IMG/VR virus record: IMGVR_UViG_3300028196_000028
Span: 1 to 41,062 of that record
Strand: one strand, 5' to 3'
From: a virus
DNA: 41,062 bases
Shown here in pieces: positions 3,136-28,703 of this stretch (its first letter is position 1; each line of letters begins with the position of its first letter). The notes beneath the pieces were generated by a model. The model did not search any database, had not been told where the DNA came from, and saw only the letters and a program-made list of their open reading frames with translations. A program made the position numbers and the translations under genes.

Positions 3136-3370
3136 TGATTCTTTTTTCTAATTCGCTAATTTTTTTAGCTATTTTTGGATTGACTTTTTTCCAAGCATCA
3201 GGTTCTTGATCGAACCAAGTCAAACCGTACTTGTCTCTTAACCAGTCACACAACTGGTCGAACTTGGAATAGCCCCATAGTCCTATTCTAGTATCTCTCA
3301 CATAAGCTAAACATGCTGCTCCAAGCAGCGCACCAGCGATGCTAGTATATATCCACAAGTAGTCTATCAT
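3113..3370 (-). CDS. Membrane protein with C-terminal coiled coil (85 aa)
   Basis: An N-terminal membrane helix (about 5-25, IYTSIAGALLGAACLAYV) is followed by a Trp-rich middle (WLRDKYGLTWFDQEPDAW) and a short coiled coil (KKISELEKRIIDLETKV). It overlaps the lipase gene by 4 nt and is the last gene of the late operon that starts at the promoter at 5314. That context allows a role in lysis or envelope targeting, but nothing in the sequence proves it. Confidence 0.65.
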   Translation of the reverse strand: MIDYLWIYTSIAGALLGAACLAYVRDTRIGLWGYSKFDQLCDWLRDKYGLTWFDQEPDAWKKVNPKIAKKISELEKRIIDLETKV

Positions 3371-4134
3371 TTTAATTTCTTTAACTTATCTGAGTATTCG
3401 CCTATGCTATGATCATATATTCCATCGAACAATTGAAACTTTTTCAGTGCTGCCCTATGACCTCTAAACCAATCCTTGACTTTTTGCCATAAAGTTAAAT
3501 TGCGAATATTTCCATAGTGATTAATATATCTTAATGTTCCATGATGCCTATAACCTATAAGGGCAAAAGGTACAGAAGGAACAACATCATTATTATTTTG
3601 AAATCTATAATGTTCTACATCCATATTGGCACAAAATTCTTTGCCACCAACTCTAGGTGATCCATATGTAAATAGTATGGGATTTTTTTCTTCCAATCTA
3701 GATGCACATAACGTTGCCATAGCACCGCCAAGTGAATGTCCAGTGATCCATAATTTCTTACCTTTGCTCTTTTGGAGCAGTGCTTCAATGTCAGACCATA
3801 ACTTTCTTAATTCTAGTTTGAAGCCCATATGTACTTTGCCTTCAGTCTTTGATTTTCTTTTAAATGCTAGTAGATCAGCTTTTACATCTGAAAATTCTGT
3901 AGGCTCAGTGCCTCTAAATGCAACTACAATATTATCTTTATCTGAAAAAATATGGCATTGCGCTCCGTCATTTTCTAAGAATTTATATGATTTGAATCCA
4001 AGTTTATTCAATTCTCGTTTGGCTCTGGTACCATCATGATATGCAAGTGCGGATACTTCGGCAAAAAAATAACTTAAACCGAAAGGATTATCCCAATATA
4101 GAGTTTCACAGTTTTCAAAAAACTTTCTGGTCAT
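3367..4134 (-). CDS. Class 3 lipase family alpha/beta hydrolase
   Basis: 255 aa, about one full class 3 lipase domain. Visible motifs in order: VVAFRGTE (70-77), HMGFK (102-106), the nucleophile elbow TGHSLGGAMATL with Ser134, FTYGSPRVG (155-163), NNDVVP with Asp183, and DHSIGEY with His242. Ser134-Asp183-His242 is the expected triad of this family, which hydrolyses acyl glycerols or phospholipids. No signal peptide is seen. Overlaps of 4 nt on both sides place it between a putative nuclease and a membrane protein, under a T4-type late promoter, so a role in lysis, membrane attack or the virion is possible. Substrate unknown. Confidence 0.9.
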   Translation of the reverse strand: MTRKFFENCETLYWDNPFGLSYFFAEVSALAYHDGTRAKRELNKLGFKSYKFLENDGAQCHIFSDKDNIVVAFRGTEPTEFSDVKADLLAFKRKSKTEGKVHMGFKLELRKLWSDIEALLQKSKGKKLWITGHSLGGAMATLCASRLEEKNPILFTYGSPRVGGKEFCANMDVEHYRFQNNNDVVPSVPFALIGYRHHGTLRYINHYGNIRNLTLWQKVKDWFRGHRAALKKFQLFDGIYDHSIGEYSDKLKKLK

Positions 4135-5291
4135 ATGAAAAGTCCTGGTCCACTCTCAATATAGTTTCTAGGATATACCTTATATCGGGTGCCATCTTTT
4201 GCTTTACTACTGGTTGCCTCAACTTTTAGTCTTATTTGAATTAGTTTCTGACCACTTACAGTATCTTTAATTTGCATTACAGGGTCTTTTGTTACTGGTC
4301 CTATTTCTGCAACCAATTTCATATCTTTTATTGCTTCCACATATGCGGCTGTAAATCTAATTTTTTTAAATTTACCAGCTTCTAATTTAACAAGTTCTAT
4401 AAAATCGGATTCATCTCCTGCAACTCCAGTTTTTATAAAATCAATTAAATTTTCAATAAATGCAGCATCGTTACTTTTTAATTTTTTATTGATTAATCTA
4501 GCTGCTTCAGTGTAAACTAATCTAGCAGCGTCTTTTACTACGCTTTTTTGTTTTTCCAAAATTGCATCGGTTCTAGAATAAAATATCATTTTTGGATCAT
4601 AATCTTTTAACGCAAGATTATATTTATTTTTTAGCGTCGATACTGAAATTCCCATTCCACCAGACCAAAGCTTTTCTTGCTTTGAAAAATCAACACCTGA
4701 TACCTGTGCGAACTGATCACCACCTTTTACCTTCAATGATATTTGATTTTTAGACATTTTACCGTCAAAAAATAATTTAATATCTGCTTTGGTTCCTGTT
4801 TGATCACCGGTTCCATCAGAATTTATAAAAATAGTATTTGCCTTTCCATTTCTAGAAAATGTCTTGGCTTGTAGATTTAATCTTCTATCACTATTGACAT
4901 AAGATATTGCAGACTTAAACAAATCCGTAACAAGAGACCAGTTGGACTTATCTGTAATAAATTGCATTGCTGGTTTAGGTATTGCCATTGCGAATTTAAT
5001 ATTATCTTGTATATTTGCTTGTTTTGTTATATCATCTACTTTTGTGACCAAAGGATTTGTTTTTAAAACTTTAATTAAGACCGCTTCAACTTCTTTTTGG
5101 GTAACTTTATCTGTAGGTCTACTCATGAATAAAGCAGCAACCGCGGCTCCTAAGATTGCTTCTGCAACATCACCTTTATTGTAATTTACTCTTTCATTTA
5201 GTTCCCGCCGAAATCTTGGTTGTGTAAATACCATTTTTTCCTCACTTAGAATTTTTCGGCAATGTTGCCAATGACCGCTGTATTTTGTCAT
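4131..5291 (-). CDS. Conserved protein with possible PD-(D/E)XK-like core (386 aa)
   Basis: Not confidently recognised. Near residue 40 is KGDVAEAILGAAVAALF, then TKADIKLFFDGK and ISLKVKGGDQFAQVSG further on. The order acidic helix, D, then (S/E)LK is compatible with a degenerate restriction-type nuclease fold, which is a weak inference. Two starts each have a strong SD: ATG 5291 (GAGGTAAAAATG) and ATG 5234 (GAGGAAAAAATG, giving MVFTQPRF), so two products are possible. A TATAAATA late promoter lies just upstream, and the stop overlaps the lipase start. Confidence 0.7.
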   Translation of the reverse strand: MTKYSGHWQHCRKILSEEKMVFTQPRFRRELNERVNYNKGDVAEAILGAAVAALFMSRPTDKVTQKEVEAVLIKVLKTNPLVTKVDDITKQANIQDNIKFAMAIPKPAMQFITDKSNWSLVTDLFKSAISYVNSDRRLNLQAKTFSRNGKANTIFINSDGTGDQTGTKADIKLFFDGKMSKNQISLKVKGGDQFAQVSGVDFSKQEKLWSGGMGISVSTLKNKYNLALKDYDPKMIFYSRTDAILEKQKSVVKDAARLVYTEAARLINKKLKSNDAAFIENLIDFIKTGVAGDESDFIELVKLEAGKFKKIRFTAAYVEAIKDMKLVAEIGPVTKDPVMQIKDTVSGQKLIQIRLKVEATSSKAKDGTRYKVYPRNYIESGPGLFI

Positions 5292-5313
5292 TTTTACCTC
5301 ATATATTTCTAAG

Positions 5314-5321
5314 TATTTATA
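5314..5321 (-). promoter_or_regulatory. T4-type late promoter TATAAATA
   Basis: Exact TATAAATA on the minus strand, 22 nt upstream of the ATG at 5291. This is the sequence recognised by T4-like gp55/gp33-modified polymerase. It would drive the 386-aa gene, the lipase and the membrane protein. Confidence 0.75.
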
Positions 5322-5327
5322 AGACTT

Positions 5328-5525
5328 TTATTCTTTATGGAATGGCCATTCTTTCTTACCAGCTAAATGTTCAACTCTTTGTTGTAAGAAATTTATGGTT
5401 GTATAGATATGACCACAGTCATGTTCTTCAATCAAAGTTCTATAATACCTTATTTCTTCTTCTAAAACTTGAATTCGGACATTGTCTACATGATATTGCA
5501 TGTATATCTCATTCTCTAATCCCAT
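5328..5525 (-). CDS. Small coiled-coil protein (65 aa)
   Basis: A mostly helical 65-aa protein with heptad-like stretches (VRIQVLEEEIRYYRTLIEEH and TTINFLQQRVEHL). There is no known domain. The SD AGGAG precedes ATG 5525, and it lies just before the late promoter of the next operon. Function unknown. Confidence 0.6.
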   Translation of the reverse strand: MGLENEIYMQYHVDNVRIQVLEEEIRYYRTLIEEHDCGHIYTTINFLQQRVEHLAGKKEWPFHKE

Positions 5526-9155: not shown

Positions 9156-9334
9156 GTACTATTTCCATAAAATTTTTGAGTAACTAAAACATCATCACAC
9201 TTTTTTACAAATATAGGAATAGCATAAGCACTTGAGCCTTGAAAAATAAGAATACCGTCACAGTAAACTCTGGCTTTAGCATTACTTGGTAAAGATAAAT
9301 CCAGTATGTAACTATCGTGACGATATATTGCCAT
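9128..9334 (-). CDS. Hypothetical protein (68 aa)
   Basis: Predicted beta-rich (YILDLSLPSNAKARVYCDGI, LIFQGSSAYAIPIFVKKC). No family recognised. ATG 9334 follows the stop of the upstream gene by two bases, and its own stop lies inside the next promoter's -10 box. Confidence 0.6.
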   Translation of the reverse strand: MAIYRHDSYILDLSLPSNAKARVYCDGILIFQGSSAYAIPIFVKKCDDVLVTQKFYGNSTRQNLTNEL

Positions 9335-9336
9335 TT

Positions 9337-9570
9337 TTAATACTCCTTAAAAGCACCTGCTCTTTCGTTTTCATCAAATCCAGCATAATAAGCTTCTATT
9401 TCTTTTTCAGTCATTTCATTTTCAAGAACTTGTTCGCCTTGATAACTTCCACGAGTCCAATAATGTGGATTTGGAGCACGACGATACCAAGAGTCTGCAC
9501 TGCCTCGATCAAATGGACCACCATGTCTTTCATCGTATTTAGTATTTCGGGGTTTCGTATTAAAAGTCAT
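9337..9570 (-). CDS. Conserved small phage protein, GGPFDRGSAD motif (77 aa)
   Basis: The motif DERHGGPFDRGSADSWYRR, then PHYW and a tail YYAGFDENERAGAFKEY, recurs in small proteins of many marine phages (recalled, not searched). Role unknown. It overlaps the 58-aa ORF upstream by 4 nt. Confidence 0.65.
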   Translation of the reverse strand: MTFNTKPRNTKYDERHGGPFDRGSADSWYRRAPNPHYWTRGSYQGEQVLENEMTEKEIEAYYAGFDENERAGAFKEY

Positions 9571-16554: not shown

Positions 16555-16761
16555 CTATTTAATACAAAGCTTAAAAACTTCTTCAATTGTTTCAGCTTGC
16601 ATTTTTTTCGGAATAACAAAGCTTCCATATCGGGTACCGTTGCCACCATAAACCTTTAATGAATCTTGAAACTTATGAAAGTAAAATGATCCTTGTGCTG
16701 GAAACATTCTGGCATCATCACCTAAAAATAATGAACCTGCGATTACAATACATTTCAACAT
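16555..16761 (-). CDS. Small hypothetical protein (68 aa)
   Basis: MLKCIVIAGSLFLGDDARMF gives a short hydrophobic start, possibly a signal or anchor, then AQGSFYFHKFQDSLKVYGGN with aromatic and Gly residues. SD AGGAG stands seven A residues before the ATG. It lies between tRNA-Met and the 3' hairpin of the structured RNA, so it is probably co-transcribed with the tRNAs. Function unknown. Confidence 0.6.
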   Translation of the reverse strand: MLKCIVIAGSLFLGDDARMFPAQGSFYFHKFQDSLKVYGGNGTRYGSFVIPKKMQAETIEEVFKLCIK

Positions 16762-16983
16762 TTTTTTCTCCTGTCTTAGTTAGTATTCAGAGGTGGAGAC
16801 TATGCACAATCTCCACCCCCTATTTGTCTTTCTCGTGGACAACCCCGCTCTGCTTTCTGTCGGTACAGAGTATTCACCGACCTAGTACGACCTTGCAAGG
16901 CTTTTCATTCGACTAGGATTTCACTGAGTAATTTTTTAAACTCCAACGCTTCGCGCTCCAATTTAACTTCATACCCAGTTTCT

Positions 16984-17060
16984 TGGCGGACCCTACAGGA
17001 CTCGAACCTGTAACCTACAGCTTAGAAGGCTGTTGCTCTATCCAGTTGAGCCAAGGGACC
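16984..17060 (-). tRNA. tRNA-Arg(UCU), inside the structured RNA
   Basis: Acceptor GGTCCCT/AGGGTCC with a U-U mismatch at 3-70, D-arm GCTC/GAGC, anticodon stem ACAGC/GCTGT with loop CTTCTAA (TCT), T-arm ACAGG-TTCGAGT-CCTGT, G73 and encoded CCA. Confidence 0.9.
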
Positions 17061-17107
17061 TATTCTTTATAGACTGCTTTTTGATACGCCCTTACGAATA
17101 TGGGGTT

Positions 17108-17372
17108 TAGTTGGCCTTCCCTCTCCCACAGACGCACCAAAAAACGGTCTAAACTTCTTACTACTACGCCCTCTGCATACCTCAACAATTCTATATAACT
17201 CTGACCCTTTGCTGATCAGTATCTAATTGTTTCATCGATAGTGGAGTGTAGTTGGCCTTCCCTCATCCACAGACGCAGTAGTAAGAAGTCTAAGAGTACT
17301 TATTAACAGGGTTATGTCCTACTATCGGAACACATTCTTTATCGTTAGGCCTAGGTTACGTAACACAGACGC
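17108..17372 (-). repeat. Three-copy RNA module
   Basis: Copies at 17108-17135, 17249-17276 and 17344-17372. On the minus strand each reads GCGTCTGTG, 10 to 12 nt, then GGCCAAC or GGCCTAAC. The first two copies differ at only three bases over 28. Confidence 0.8.
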
Positions 17373-17447
17373 TCCCAAATCAAAACAGCAAATAAAATTT
17401 GCACCCTGTTAAAAAGCACTCTTTAAACTGATTCTTTCTATACTAGT

Positions 17448-17476
17448 AACATAACATATTTTAAACTCTTTGTCAA
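17448..17476 (-). promoter_or_regulatory. Early promoter of the structured RNA
   Basis: TTGACA (17471-17476), 17 bp, TATGTT (17448-17453), leader AGTATAGAAAGAATCAG. It is the only leader-type promoter followed by noncoding sequence instead of an SD and ORF. Confidence 0.75.
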
Positions 17477-17486
17477 CCTTTTTATT

Positions 17487-17535
17487 TGGTGCGGATGGAG
17501 AGAATCGAACTCTCACGCCGTGAAGCACCTGCTCT
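17487..17535 (-). pseudogene. tRNA 3' remnant
   Basis: The minus strand has a T-arm GAGAG-TTCGATT-CTCTC, the acceptor 3' strand CATCCGC, A73 and CCA. The matching 5' acceptor strand (GCGGATG) is absent, and the anticodon arm (GGTGCTTCACGG) does not fold normally. It lies between the stop of the DnaJ-type zinc miniprotein and the structured-RNA promoter. Confidence 0.7.
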
Positions 17536-17544
17536 ATTAATTTA

Positions 17545-17718: not shown

Positions 17719-17760
17719 TTTTTTGTCCTTTCGGTGACAAGCGATTCTTTCTATAATGTT

Positions 17761-17789
17761 GTTCTAACATATTCTGGCGAGTTTTTCAA
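17761..17789 (-). promoter_or_regulatory. Early promoter with conserved leader
   Basis: TTGAAA (17784-17789), 17 bp, TAGAAC (17761-17766), leader AGAAAGAATCGCT. The weakest boxes of the family but a full leader. Confidence 0.6.
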
Positions 17790-17798
17790 CCTCTAATT

Positions 17799-18041: not shown

Positions 18042-18082
18042 TTTTAGTCCTTTCAGTGACTAGTGATTCTTTCTATACTAAC

Positions 18083-18111
18083 TTTGTAGCATATTCTGTG
18101 GTACTTGTCAA
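18083..18111 (-). promoter_or_regulatory. Early promoter with conserved leader
   Basis: TTGACA (18106-18111), 17 bp, TACAAA (18083-18088), leader AGTATAGAAAGAATCACT. Confidence 0.75.
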
Positions 18112-18119
18112 CCTTTTAT

Positions 18120-18332: not shown

Positions 18333-18368
18333 TTTTGAACCCTTTCAAGTGATTCTTTCTATACTAGT

Positions 18369-18397
18369 AAACTAGCATAATCCAAAGTCAATGTCAA
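18369..18397 (-). promoter_or_regulatory. Early promoter nested in the upstream gene's 3' end
   Basis: TTGACA (18392-18397), 17 bp, TAGTTT (18369-18374). A 51-bp segment (18349-18399) is identical to 6419-6469. The upstream 77-aa gene reads through the -35 box and stops in the -10. Confidence 0.75.
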
Positions 18398-18605
18398 CCC
18401 CCAATTTTGCCTTTTTTTCTTGGAAGGTATCTTCTTTCCAATACTTGCGAGGATTTCCACACATATGACAAGAGCAAATTTTTGGAGAAGTTGCATGTAT
18501 GCCAATCAATTTAGGACTATCTAACTGACAAATTGTATGCTGGTAGTTTTTAACCTTGTGTTTTTTTAGCTTTAACTTTTGGCGTCTGTAAGCTAGTCCT
18601 CTCAT
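18372..18605 (-). CDS. Conserved basic protein with CSCxMCGNPR motif (77 aa)
   Basis: A basic N-terminus (MRGLAYRRQKLKLKKHKVKN) is followed by a Cys cluster CSCHMCGNPRKYW, a motif seen in many small phage and bacterial proteins of unknown function, probably a zinc site. The last eight codons (VDIDFGLC) coincide with the promoter sequence, so the C-terminus may be imposed by the promoter. Confidence 0.65.
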   Translation of the reverse strand: MRGLAYRRQKLKLKKHKVKNYQHTICQLDSPKLIGIHATSPKICSCHMCGNPRKYWKEDTFQEKKAKLGVDIDFGLC

Positions 18606-25129: not shown

Positions 25130-25993
25130 TTAATAACTTTGTGCTAGTCTCCACATCAAATATTCTTTACTCTCAATAGGCGGATACTTAGATACTTCGT
25201 GAAAACGTAAATTATCTACTATAGTACCCGGAGTAGGATCAACAAAATGTGGCATACTAAATCTAGTTTTATGTATATGTGAATTAACTACTCTATGTTT
25301 TGTGCTTTTAAAGTAATCATTTGTCCATCTCTGAAGTAGATCACCAATATTCACAACCACACCATCGACATTATATGGCACTGGATGCCATTCGCCTTTT
25401 AAATCTTGTACCTGCAATCCTGGAACATCGTTTATTTGCCAAAGTAGTGTAATAGTTCCGTAGTCGCTATGTTCACCAATTCTCATTTGTCGATCTGTTA
25501 TTTCTCCTTCATATGCGGGATAATGAATAACCCTTGTAGTATTGAATGGCTGCATATGAGCATCTACAAGCGTAGATCCGCATTTTAAAATTTCATCAAA
25601 TCTACTCAGTATTCTAAGTGTAAGTTTATCTGCAACATCAATACTTTGCAATGCTGTTGCTTTAAATCCTGGCAATTCTCTTGGCCAAAGATGCTCACCC
25701 ATTCTTGTGTTATTGTAATTAAAACTTTCTTTAATATCTTTCGGTGCAGTAGGATCGACATTTTCATCTCCTACCATACTATAGCCTAGATTAGTGTCTC
25801 CTTCATATGGATACTTTTTCTTTATTTCATCAGGTAAATTAAAAAACGCTTTCATTTCACTGAACCAACTAATCATATCAGATTTTTCAGATTTTGTCAA
25901 GCAATTAGTAAATACCGCAAAACCTACAGATGTATAAGCATCTTCAATATGTTGATTTGCGTATGGAGAATTAAAATCAATTACAGGTATCAT
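25130..25993 (-). CDS. 2OG-Fe(II) oxygenase, isopenicillin N synthase-like
   Basis: 287 aa from ATG 25993 (MIPVIDFNSPY), with SD AAAGGA. Motifs: the N-terminal DIOX region (SVGFAVFTNC), GEHSDYGTITLL with Fe ligands His175 and Asp177, KSTKHRV with His233, and HKTRFSMPHF with Arg244 binding 2-oxoglutarate. Arg244-x-Ser246 is the usual RxS. It hydroxylates or oxidises an unknown substrate. The SD begins one base after the CCA of the unusual tRNA, so mRNA and tRNA share one transcript. Confidence 0.88.
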   Translation of the reverse strand: MIPVIDFNSPYANQHIEDAYTSVGFAVFTNCLTKSEKSDMISWFSEMKAFFNLPDEIKKKYPYEGDTNLGYSMVGDENVDPTAPKDIKESFNYNNTRMGEHLWPRELPGFKATALQSIDVADKLTLRILSRFDEILKCGSTLVDAHMQPFNTTRVIHYPAYEGEITDRQMRIGEHSDYGTITLLWQINDVPGLQVQDLKGEWHPVPYNVDGVVVNIGDLLQRWTNDYFKSTKHRVVNSHIHKTRFSMPHFVDPTPGTIVDNLRFHEVSKYPPIESKEYLMWRLAQSY

Positions 25994-26005
25994 TATTATT
26001 TCCTT

Positions 26006-26112
26006 TGGCTCTGAGGGCAGGAGTCGAACCTGCACGAATAAATATACATTTACGCTAGTATATATTCACGGTATAAACAGTACCGCGTGTCTACCAATTC
26101 CACCACCTCAGA
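26006..26112 (-). tRNA. Unusual class II tRNA with GUU (Asn) anticodon
   Basis: 107 nt. Acceptor TCTGAGG/CCTCAGA, Leu-like D-arm (GTGGAATTGGTAGACAC), anticodon stem CGGTA/TACCG with loop CTGTTTA (GTT), a 35-nt variable region forming a stem GAATA.TATAC/GTATA..TATTC, T-arm GCAGG-TTCGACT-CCTGC, G73 and encoded CCA. Normal tRNA-Asn has a short variable loop; long arms belong to Leu, Ser and Tyr. G73 fits Asn. It begins five bases after the stop of the AsnRS-like gene. Confidence 0.85.
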
Positions 26113-27644: not shown

Positions 27645-28703
27645 TTAAGGTACTTTCGCATCAATTCCTTCAACATAATAATTCATTGAATTAAGTTGCA
27701 TATCAGTTGCAACCTCACCATCTGCCAATTGCAGATTTCCTTCATTATCATAAATTGGTCCAGTGAAAGCAAAAAATTCGCCATTGTTAATAGCGTCTTT
27801 CACAGCTTGCGCTTTTGCTCTAACATTAAATGGCATATTTGTGAATGGTGCCATTTGAACAACACCTTCATTCATATGACCGAAATAGTTTTCACTTTCC
27901 CAATTACCATCAATTACTGCTTGCACTTTACGAATATAGTAAGGTGACCAGTTATCGATAGTTGCTGTAAGTTGTGCATCTGGAGCAAATTTTCTTTGAT
28001 CAGACGCTTGTCCAAAACCATGTTTACCCTGTTGTTCTGCGGCCTGAAGTGGCGCGGGAGAATCTGTGTGTTGTGCAACCATATCACAGCCTTGCGACAT
28101 AAGAACTTTTGCAGCATCAGATTCTTTTCCAGGATTATACCAAGTATTTACCCATACGATATCAATATCAACATCAGGATTTACACTTTTTGCGCCTAGA
28201 TAATAAGTATTAATTTCACGGATTACTTCTGGAATTGGATATGCTGCAACATAACAAATTTTATTTGTTTTTGTCATTAATCCAGCAATCACACCTTGAA
28301 CATGACGTGCCTGATATAGTCTTAGACCATAACTGGACATATTAGGTGCTTGCTTATAACCAGTAGCATGTTCAAACTTAACATCAGGGTAACGTTTAGC
28401 TATTTTCAATGTGGCATCCATATACCCAAATGATGTTGTAAAAATAATATCAGCGCCTTGCAAAACCATTGAGTTTATAACTCTTTCTGCATCTGGTCCT
28501 TCGCTAACACTTTCTACATACATAGTTTCAACTTTATCGCCAAAATGCGCCTCTACATCTTGTCGACCGATATCATGGCGGTATGTCCATCCATGATCAC
28601 CCACTGGTCCTACGTATACGAACCCTACTTTTACTGTATCCCCAGCGAATGCGCTTGTTGCTAACATCATTCCCGCTGCTACGATTGCTAAAAGTTTTTT
28701 CAT
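27645..28703 (-). CDS. BMP-family substrate-binding protein (nucleoside-type)
   Basis: 352 aa with a signal peptide MKKLLAIVAAGMMLATSAFA. The mature part begins VKVGFVYVGPVGDHGWTYRH, has SEGPDAERVINSMVLQGADI, FTTSFGYMDATLKIAKRYPD, FEHATGY, and HTDSPAPLQAAEQQG near 220. This is the Bmp/PnrA/Med family of periplasmic binding proteins for ABC uptake, mostly purine nucleosides. No lipobox is seen, so it should be soluble in the periplasm. It would serve host permeases, as phage PstS does for phosphate (inference). Confidence 0.92.
   Translation of the reverse strand: MKKLLAIVAAGMMLATSAFAGDTVKVGFVYVGPVGDHGWTYRHDIGRQDVEAHFGDKVETMYVESVSEGPDAERVINSMVLQGADIIFTTSFGYMDATLKIAKRYPDVKFEHATGYKQAPNMSSYGLRLYQARHVQGVIAGLMTKTNKICYVAAYPIPEVIREINTYYLGAKSVNPDVDIDIVWVNTWYNPGKESDAAKVLMSQGCDMVAQHTDSPAPLQAAEQQGKHGFGQASDQRKFAPDAQLTATIDNWSPYYIRKVQAVIDGNWESENYFGHMNEGVVQMAPFTNMPFNVRAKAQAVKDAINNGEFFAFTGPIYDNEGNLQLADGEVATDMQLNSMNYYVEGIDAKVP

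Follow-up and report, generated by a model that had tools for sequence, protein, structure and literature searches.

Separable structured RNA domains around a tRNA-Arg in a group of T4-related, probably marine phages

A gene-free stretch of ~ 650 letters, located 3' of a repeated early-type promoter in the viral record IMGVR_UViG_3300028196_000028, raises the question of what kind of RNA it encodes. The whole DNA analyzed, hereafter the window, comprises 41,062 nucleotides. The original prediction, made from these letters, was a large modular structured RNA containing a tRNA-Arg, possibly GOLLD-like or else a new class. Here we show that the product is indeed structured, non-coding and tRNA-linked, but that it is not one fixed large RNA, as its blocks occur apart and reordered in related phages.

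The locus and its coding status

The structured-RNA unit occupies positions 17478-16787 of the minus strand, on which all of the composite RNA is encoded and to which the window coordinates below refer. In the 5' to 3' direction it contains the promoter, the blocks M1, M2 and M3, tRNA-Arg(UCU) and a domain D, and reads towards a small gene at 16761. This next gene (16555..16761, 68 aa) lies outside the RNA and served as synteny anchor. At the unit start, the promoter search recovered the predicted early promoter, TTGACA-17 nt-TATGTT, at 17448..17476. It sits in a 61-nt element with a conserved TATAGAAAGAATC downstream, and four copies of this element lie within 2.1 kb (17418-17478, 17731-17791, 18053-18113 and 18339-18399), with further copies at about 19774, 6420 and 10628, ahead of small genes. 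Next to the unit, a tRNA-Leu 3' remnant is found at 17483-17540, into which a promoter now runs; its intact counterpart is L170:887-971.

The tRNA-Arg (16984-17060, anticodon UCU, encoded CCA) was called by ARAGORN and by Rfam RF00005 at 67 bits. It is intact and lies directly between M3 and D, and tRNA-Met and tRNA-Pro adjoin. Apart from this tRNA the stretch is as gene-sparse as predicted, with no sense-strand ORF of more than 42 aa between the promoter and 16787. Conserved ORFs, which would have spoken against an RNA, are absent from the region among the relatives. In D, stops interrupt nearly every frame across relatives, and the lengths of the domain differ by non-multiples of three. Two frames of M3 are open in some relatives, and the M3 of L167 has a 2-nt insertion; the changes in M3 among relatives preserve pairs, as expected of an RNA. 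The fold energy of the whole stretch has a z-score of -6.1, with none of 20 shuffles equally stable. That the stretch represents a real, conserved, non-coding structured RNA is hardly in doubt.

Covariation in D and in the M modules

Domain D (16787..16983), supported by covariation and represented by model R1, is composed of helix 1, helix 2, hairpin 3 with a pseudoknot, hairpin 4 and a terminal hairpin, and its 3' end is a conserved GA, mostly YUGA. Helix 1 (16923..16979; 16979-16972 with 16930-16923) forms a spacer hairpin whose length varies, being short in L178 and in L186; 100% of its cells are paired, and double changes occur at three pairs. A conserved unpaired GUGAAA leads from there to helix 2 (16881..16917; 16917-16912 with 16886-16881), where two pairs show double changes. 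Hairpin 3 (16880-16876/16864-16860) is combined, within 16848..16880, with an H-type pseudoknot in which CUCUG 16870-16866 pairs with CAGAG 16852-16848. Two pseudoknot pairs display double changes: the window group has CUCUG/CAGAG, the L144 group GCUGA/UCAGC, and L186 ACUGG/CCAGU. This covariation constitutes the evidence for the pseudoknot; the greedy best pairing differed for the window and L144. Two pairings that cross helices had been proposed, of which this one is strongly supported and the second unconfirmed. Hairpin 4 (16824..16842; 16842-16838 with 16828-16824) has double changes at three of its five pairs and 100% of cells paired. The terminal hairpin (16790..16819) carries a 10-nt loop, UUGUGCAUAG, and the loops of relatives, ACUGCAGAAR and ACCUAGGAAG, contain palindromic hexamers.

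Over ten sequences, 18 of the 34 pairs in D have compensatory double changes and 99.1% of cells are paired, compared with at most 43% for slid partners, and none of 500 shuffles reaches the covariation score. The core of D over 15 sequences gives the same covariation picture. Model R1, built without L049, finds the divergent D of that record with 45.7 bits (E = 3.4e-10), while 0.8 Mb of other viral DNA contains no match to it. Weak antisense matches of R1 correspond to the terminal hairpin read backwards. The 3' part of the L127 RNA, considered as a further D, was rejected, having no match to D.

The M modules also covary, less richly than D, so that the covariation among relatives originally named as a test is present in all four domains. 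M1 (17292..17423; also present in L118, L182, L178, L049 and L165) has a 21-nt closing helix, inner hairpins, GCGUCUGUG and CCUAGGCCUAAC. Its long-range helix (17403-17423/17292-17312) is 90% complementary over 21 nt, and that of M2 (17274-17292/17150-17168) is 89% complementary over 19 nt. The long-range helices predicted at 13 and 9 bp are hence both real and longer than stated. In the strongly diverged L165, 20 of 21 positions of the M1 closing helix are paired in a hand-written pairing, with several double changes.

M2 (17152..17290; relatives L127, L140, L170 and L178) is built of a 20-bp closing helix, an apical hairpin with the loop GAAGGCCAA and a second arm with a covarying hairpin. 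Its 47 pairs are 98.4% paired, and double changes occur at six pairs in four helices among only four distinct sequences. M3 (17072..17149), recognized through relatives and covariance model R2, has a 20-bp closing helix, and its apical hairpin and the M2 one are homologous; its 27 pairs are 98.9% paired, with double changes at three pairs in addition to one-sided changes. Model R2 matches the relatives' records but nothing in the 0.8 Mb of other viral DNA.

A module occurring three times was part of the original prediction. GCGTCTGTG is present three times, and M2 and M3 have a homologous core, consisting of a closing stem that ends CGUCU/GGGCG, an inner stem and the GAGRGAAGGCCAAY loop. M1, in contrast, has only the 9-mer GCGUCUGUG in common with them and folds differently, indicating that M2 and M3 are genuine copies and that M1 is a look-alike or a very distant one. 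The accompanying motif GGCCWAAC is really GGCC(T)AAC, the copies in M2 and M3 reading GGCCAAC.

Order of the blocks among relatives

Relatives were collected from IMG/VR with a DNA pattern for the module core (L023, L073, L127, L130), by blastn over all fetched loci (adding L118 and L049) and with a further pattern (L140). The downstream 68-aa gene (alignment A1) led to 23 syntenic loci, and patterns for D and M3 to L178, L182, L185, L186, L188, L189 and L192. The relatives' records are fragments of 4-91 kb. A loose first pattern, GCGTCTGTG..GGCCNAAC, had returned 119 stretches, mostly by chance, 90 of which were used as negative controls. Ten of 14 matches to a stricter pattern were rejected; they are one recurring, likely coding sequence with a 6-nt spacer and no blastn match to the RNA. 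The pattern search in prokaryotes gave six matches, about the chance expectation, with a single match each. By blastn, a set of 50,697 phage records contains nothing related to the M part or to the D of the window or of L186. Likewise, R1 and R2 found nothing above noise in eight T4-related isolates (Pelagibacter HTVC008M, S-PM2, phiM12, ORM_20, D479, C48C1, OspM_OC and ACG-2014d).

In ~ 25 related records, M3, M2, M1, D and the tRNA are found alone, duplicated, deleted or reordered. The complete order M1-M2-M3-tRNA-Arg-D is present in the window, L023, L073 and L178. L118 and L182 contain M1-tRNA-Arg-D, with the junction TAGACT/ATAAAG at the M2-M3 site, and tRNA-Arg-D only is seen in L144, L145, L147, L155, L171, L173, L185 and L188. 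L127/L130 display a hairpin H0, M2, M3, a second, tandem M3 (M3') and a tRNA-Arg-like domain. In L140/L169, M2-M3 lies 3' of a promoter, with a tRNA-Arg 700 nt off and without D; in L170, M2 follows tRNA-Gln and tRNA-Leu. In L165, a small gene has H0-M3-M1 as its leader; in L167, as in L192, the 5' leader of such a gene consists entirely of M3, and L049 has the order D, an M1-like block (M1'), M1 and tRNA-Trp. The strongest surprise of this analysis is that the "large RNA" is put together from separable, separately evolving RNA domains. The blocks have presumably been gained, lost, duplicated and reordered by recombination.

The phages themselves are T4-related, probably marine, myoviruses. 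Both of the larger relatives sampled for proteins have tail genes, and one of the two has T4-type baseplate genes with ~ 26-31% identity to their counterparts in known phages; the best match of the gp8 homologue is in Kyanoviridae. A search for gp23 gave no match in the relatives and none in the controls either. The sister phage L140 carries an alphaproteobacterial circularly permuted tmRNA at 5013-5405 (minus strand; 108.6 bits, gathering 50), which hints at an alphaproteobacterial host. Other genes of the window include a lipase (3367-4134), a 2OG-Fe(II) oxygenase (25130-26035) and a phage-borne PnrA/Bmp-type ABC transporter substrate-binding protein (27645-28703, minus strand).

Two further loci deserve mention. 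The tRNA-Arg-like domain of L127 (4720-4850, plus strand) has the anticodon loop CUUCUAA, lacks a normal D arm and is clamped by an outer helix AACGCUAGA/UCUAGCGUU; ARAGORN makes no call there, and the domain looks like a tRNA converted to a structural domain of the RNA. In a high-GC, otherwise dissimilar phage, the apical hairpin recurs as CCGAUGGG-GGAGGGAAGGCCAACCAAA-CCCAUCGG (L196:6240-6290, minus strand); there it lies in an apparently gene-free leader of ~ 400 nt before a gene that by eye looks thioredoxin-like; this leader has no match in Rfam.

Possible roles and relation to known RNAs

Taken as a whole, the observations are best explained, if tentatively, by a trans-acting, self-associating mechanism. 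A single early transcript would run through the whole unit. RNase P would then process the tRNA at its 5' end, and an endonuclease would cut between the CCA and D helix 1. Such a cut appears needed for maturation, because helix 1 starts 4-5 nt after the CCA, and 3' exonucleases are hardly able to mature a tRNA of this kind without it. Processing of the tRNA would free a 5' RNA made up of the M blocks and a 3' RNA, D, which may both act in trans as stable structural RNAs. D would probably self-associate via the palindromic loop of its terminal hairpin, comparable to the inter-chain loop contacts of GOLLD and ROOL, and may act in the take-over of tRNAs or translation early in infection.

At the center of the terminal loop of D, some lineages have CUGCAG and others CCUAGG. 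Both hexamers are palindromes, and the shuffle fraction for this pattern is 0.00015 with related loops counted as independent. In the window group the loop reads GUGCAU, palindromic over only 4 nt, or 6 nt counting G-U. Some palindrome excess is also seen in hairpin 4 and in the M2/M3 loop, with exceptions that include hairpin 4 of the window and the M3 loop of L178, where the palindrome is lost (GGCU). Palindromic loops thus suggest RNA self-association, a reading kept provisional by the clear exceptions in these two elements. An earlier idea of a palindromic GGCC kissing loop in all modules was dropped, since it is broken in L178 M3 and the M1 letters vary among relatives (GACC, AGCC, AACC), a variation better explained by pairing with U residues (U-R pairs).

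The position of the blocks could instead reflect cis-acting maturation or stability cassettes, with the M hairpins capping the 5' ends of early transcripts and D serving as a folded 3' trailer, by which the tRNA-Arg precursor is protected against 3' exonucleases or its cleavage site is set. M blocks do occur just 3' of early-type promoters or tRNAs, in 18 of 20 records (manual count) D comes after tRNA-Arg, beginning 4-5 nt from the CCA, and the solitary M3 leaders of L167 and L192 would also fit a cis role. However, D precedes tRNA-Arg in L186 and has no tRNA immediately before it in L049, many tRNA-Arg genes of sister phages (L158, L165, L167, L170) have no D, and the conserved pseudoknot and unpaired GUGAAA exceed the needs of a simple cap. 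We therefore consider cis-acting cassettes possible but on the unlikely side.

Somewhat more speculative, and in our view rather unlikely, is the idea that the phage group maintains a kit of exchangeable RNA domains (M1, M2, M3, D and a tRNA or tRNA-like domain), recombined into multi-domain RNAs that would self-associate by palindromic kissing loops into particles displaying or holding tRNAs. The kit would then represent a third, modular lineage of the GOLLD/ROOL type.

It is doubtful that the M hairpins are repeated sites titrating one host or phage protein, a sponge as CsrB is for CsrA, with D a separate small RNA sharing the transcript. Speaking for it, the same core recurs in M2 and M3, in one to three copies including the tandem duplicate of L127, and the apical GAGRGAAGGCCAAY is conserved beyond pairing. 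The protein partner is putative, and in L178 the M2 apical loop is swapped for another sequence. This natural loop swap (L178:1510-1680, minus strand) places a longer sequence on a retained inner stem, which by inspection has changed from GUGGA/UCCAC to GUGAA/UUCAC.

Riboswitches or leaders governing the next gene are an improbable reading. M3 as the whole 5' leader in L167 and L192, M3-M1 before a similar gene in L165 and the location of D ahead of a gene in most records agree with it. The genes 3' of D and of the M blocks differ by record, however, with tRNAs there in several. On its 3' side, D is followed by gene A, gene B, tRNA-Met, tRNA-Arg or M1'; such variety speaks against D as a simple cis-regulator of a single gene, and D is linked more closely to the tRNA than to any gene. 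Moreover, the window has no terminator-like platform, and no typical U-tract terminator is found at the terminal hairpin of D.

At Rfam 15 gathering scores, only tRNA was found in the window, and a permissive scan (E ≤ 10) added only weak matches far below the family thresholds. D and the M modules are therefore uncatalogued structured RNA families and, as far as these libraries show, D and M2/M3 represent at least two conserved folds absent from Rfam. The GOLLD-like identity is not borne out: RF02032 (gathering threshold 150 bits) has no match in the window at E ≤ 10 and none in 13 of 14 relatives' records, the remaining one showing a 5-bit chance match away from the RNA. ROOL (RF03087) matched neither the window nor the relatives' records in a search run without a positive control. 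A diverged GOLLD or ROOL RNA, suggested by the same setting and layout and a similar total length (PMC12286853), is very improbable given these results and the occurrence of single blocks at 80-150 nt; the alternative of a new class fits better. A resemblance by eye to self-cleaving ribozymes and to the SAM-I riboswitch has no Rfam support and was dropped, as was RNase P.

The function of GOLLD and ROOL is elusive, and both look like single monolithic molecules, whereas here an unrelated RNA occupies the same genomic niche. Since its parts occur alone, paired and in full, each can be made and tested apart, and the natural block variants offer a ready-made deletion series. For the new folds, D and M2/M3, covariance models are ready. 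Should D prove to dimerize or to alter tRNA-Arg maturation, this would help to explain why phages retain large structured RNAs next to their tRNAs.

Among known systems, the structured RNA manA has been described in marine phages, T4-like cyanophages among them (Weinberg et al., PMC2864571). It adjoins tRNAs in sister records, much as D follows tRNA-Arg: in L140 it lies directly 3' of tRNA-Gly (9176-9385, minus strand; 53.3 bits against a threshold of 55.2), and in L158, by sequence, directly ahead of tRNA-Met (about 4260-4490, plus strand). In these phages manA, too, may thus be an RNA of tRNA islands. The identification of D as manA (RF01745) was rejected, as D does not match the model and has a different helix order. 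OLE RNA is comparable as a structured RNA forming a homodimer (PMC12286853), but it comes from Gram-positive extremophiles, and the Rfam scan gave no match to it.

GOLLD and ROOL are the closest in kind. According to PMC12286853, both are phage or prophage RNAs near tRNA islands that form cages. In GOLLD, the 3' region is conserved and the 5' region variable, and tRNAs sometimes lie in the linker. The present RNA similarly spans several hundred nucleotides in a tRNA island with a tRNA between its parts, and D is conserved while the M blocks vary in number and order. ROOL, a large RNA, has pseudoknots and kissing loops of the sort seen or suspected here (same source); its architecture differs and its model does not match. 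Inter-chain self-association is shown for GOLLD and suspected here from palindromic loops, and blocks that also occur alone or reordered are not described for GOLLD in the available text of PMC12286853. The window RNA most likely works like the GOLLD/ROOL kind, yet belongs to neither family.
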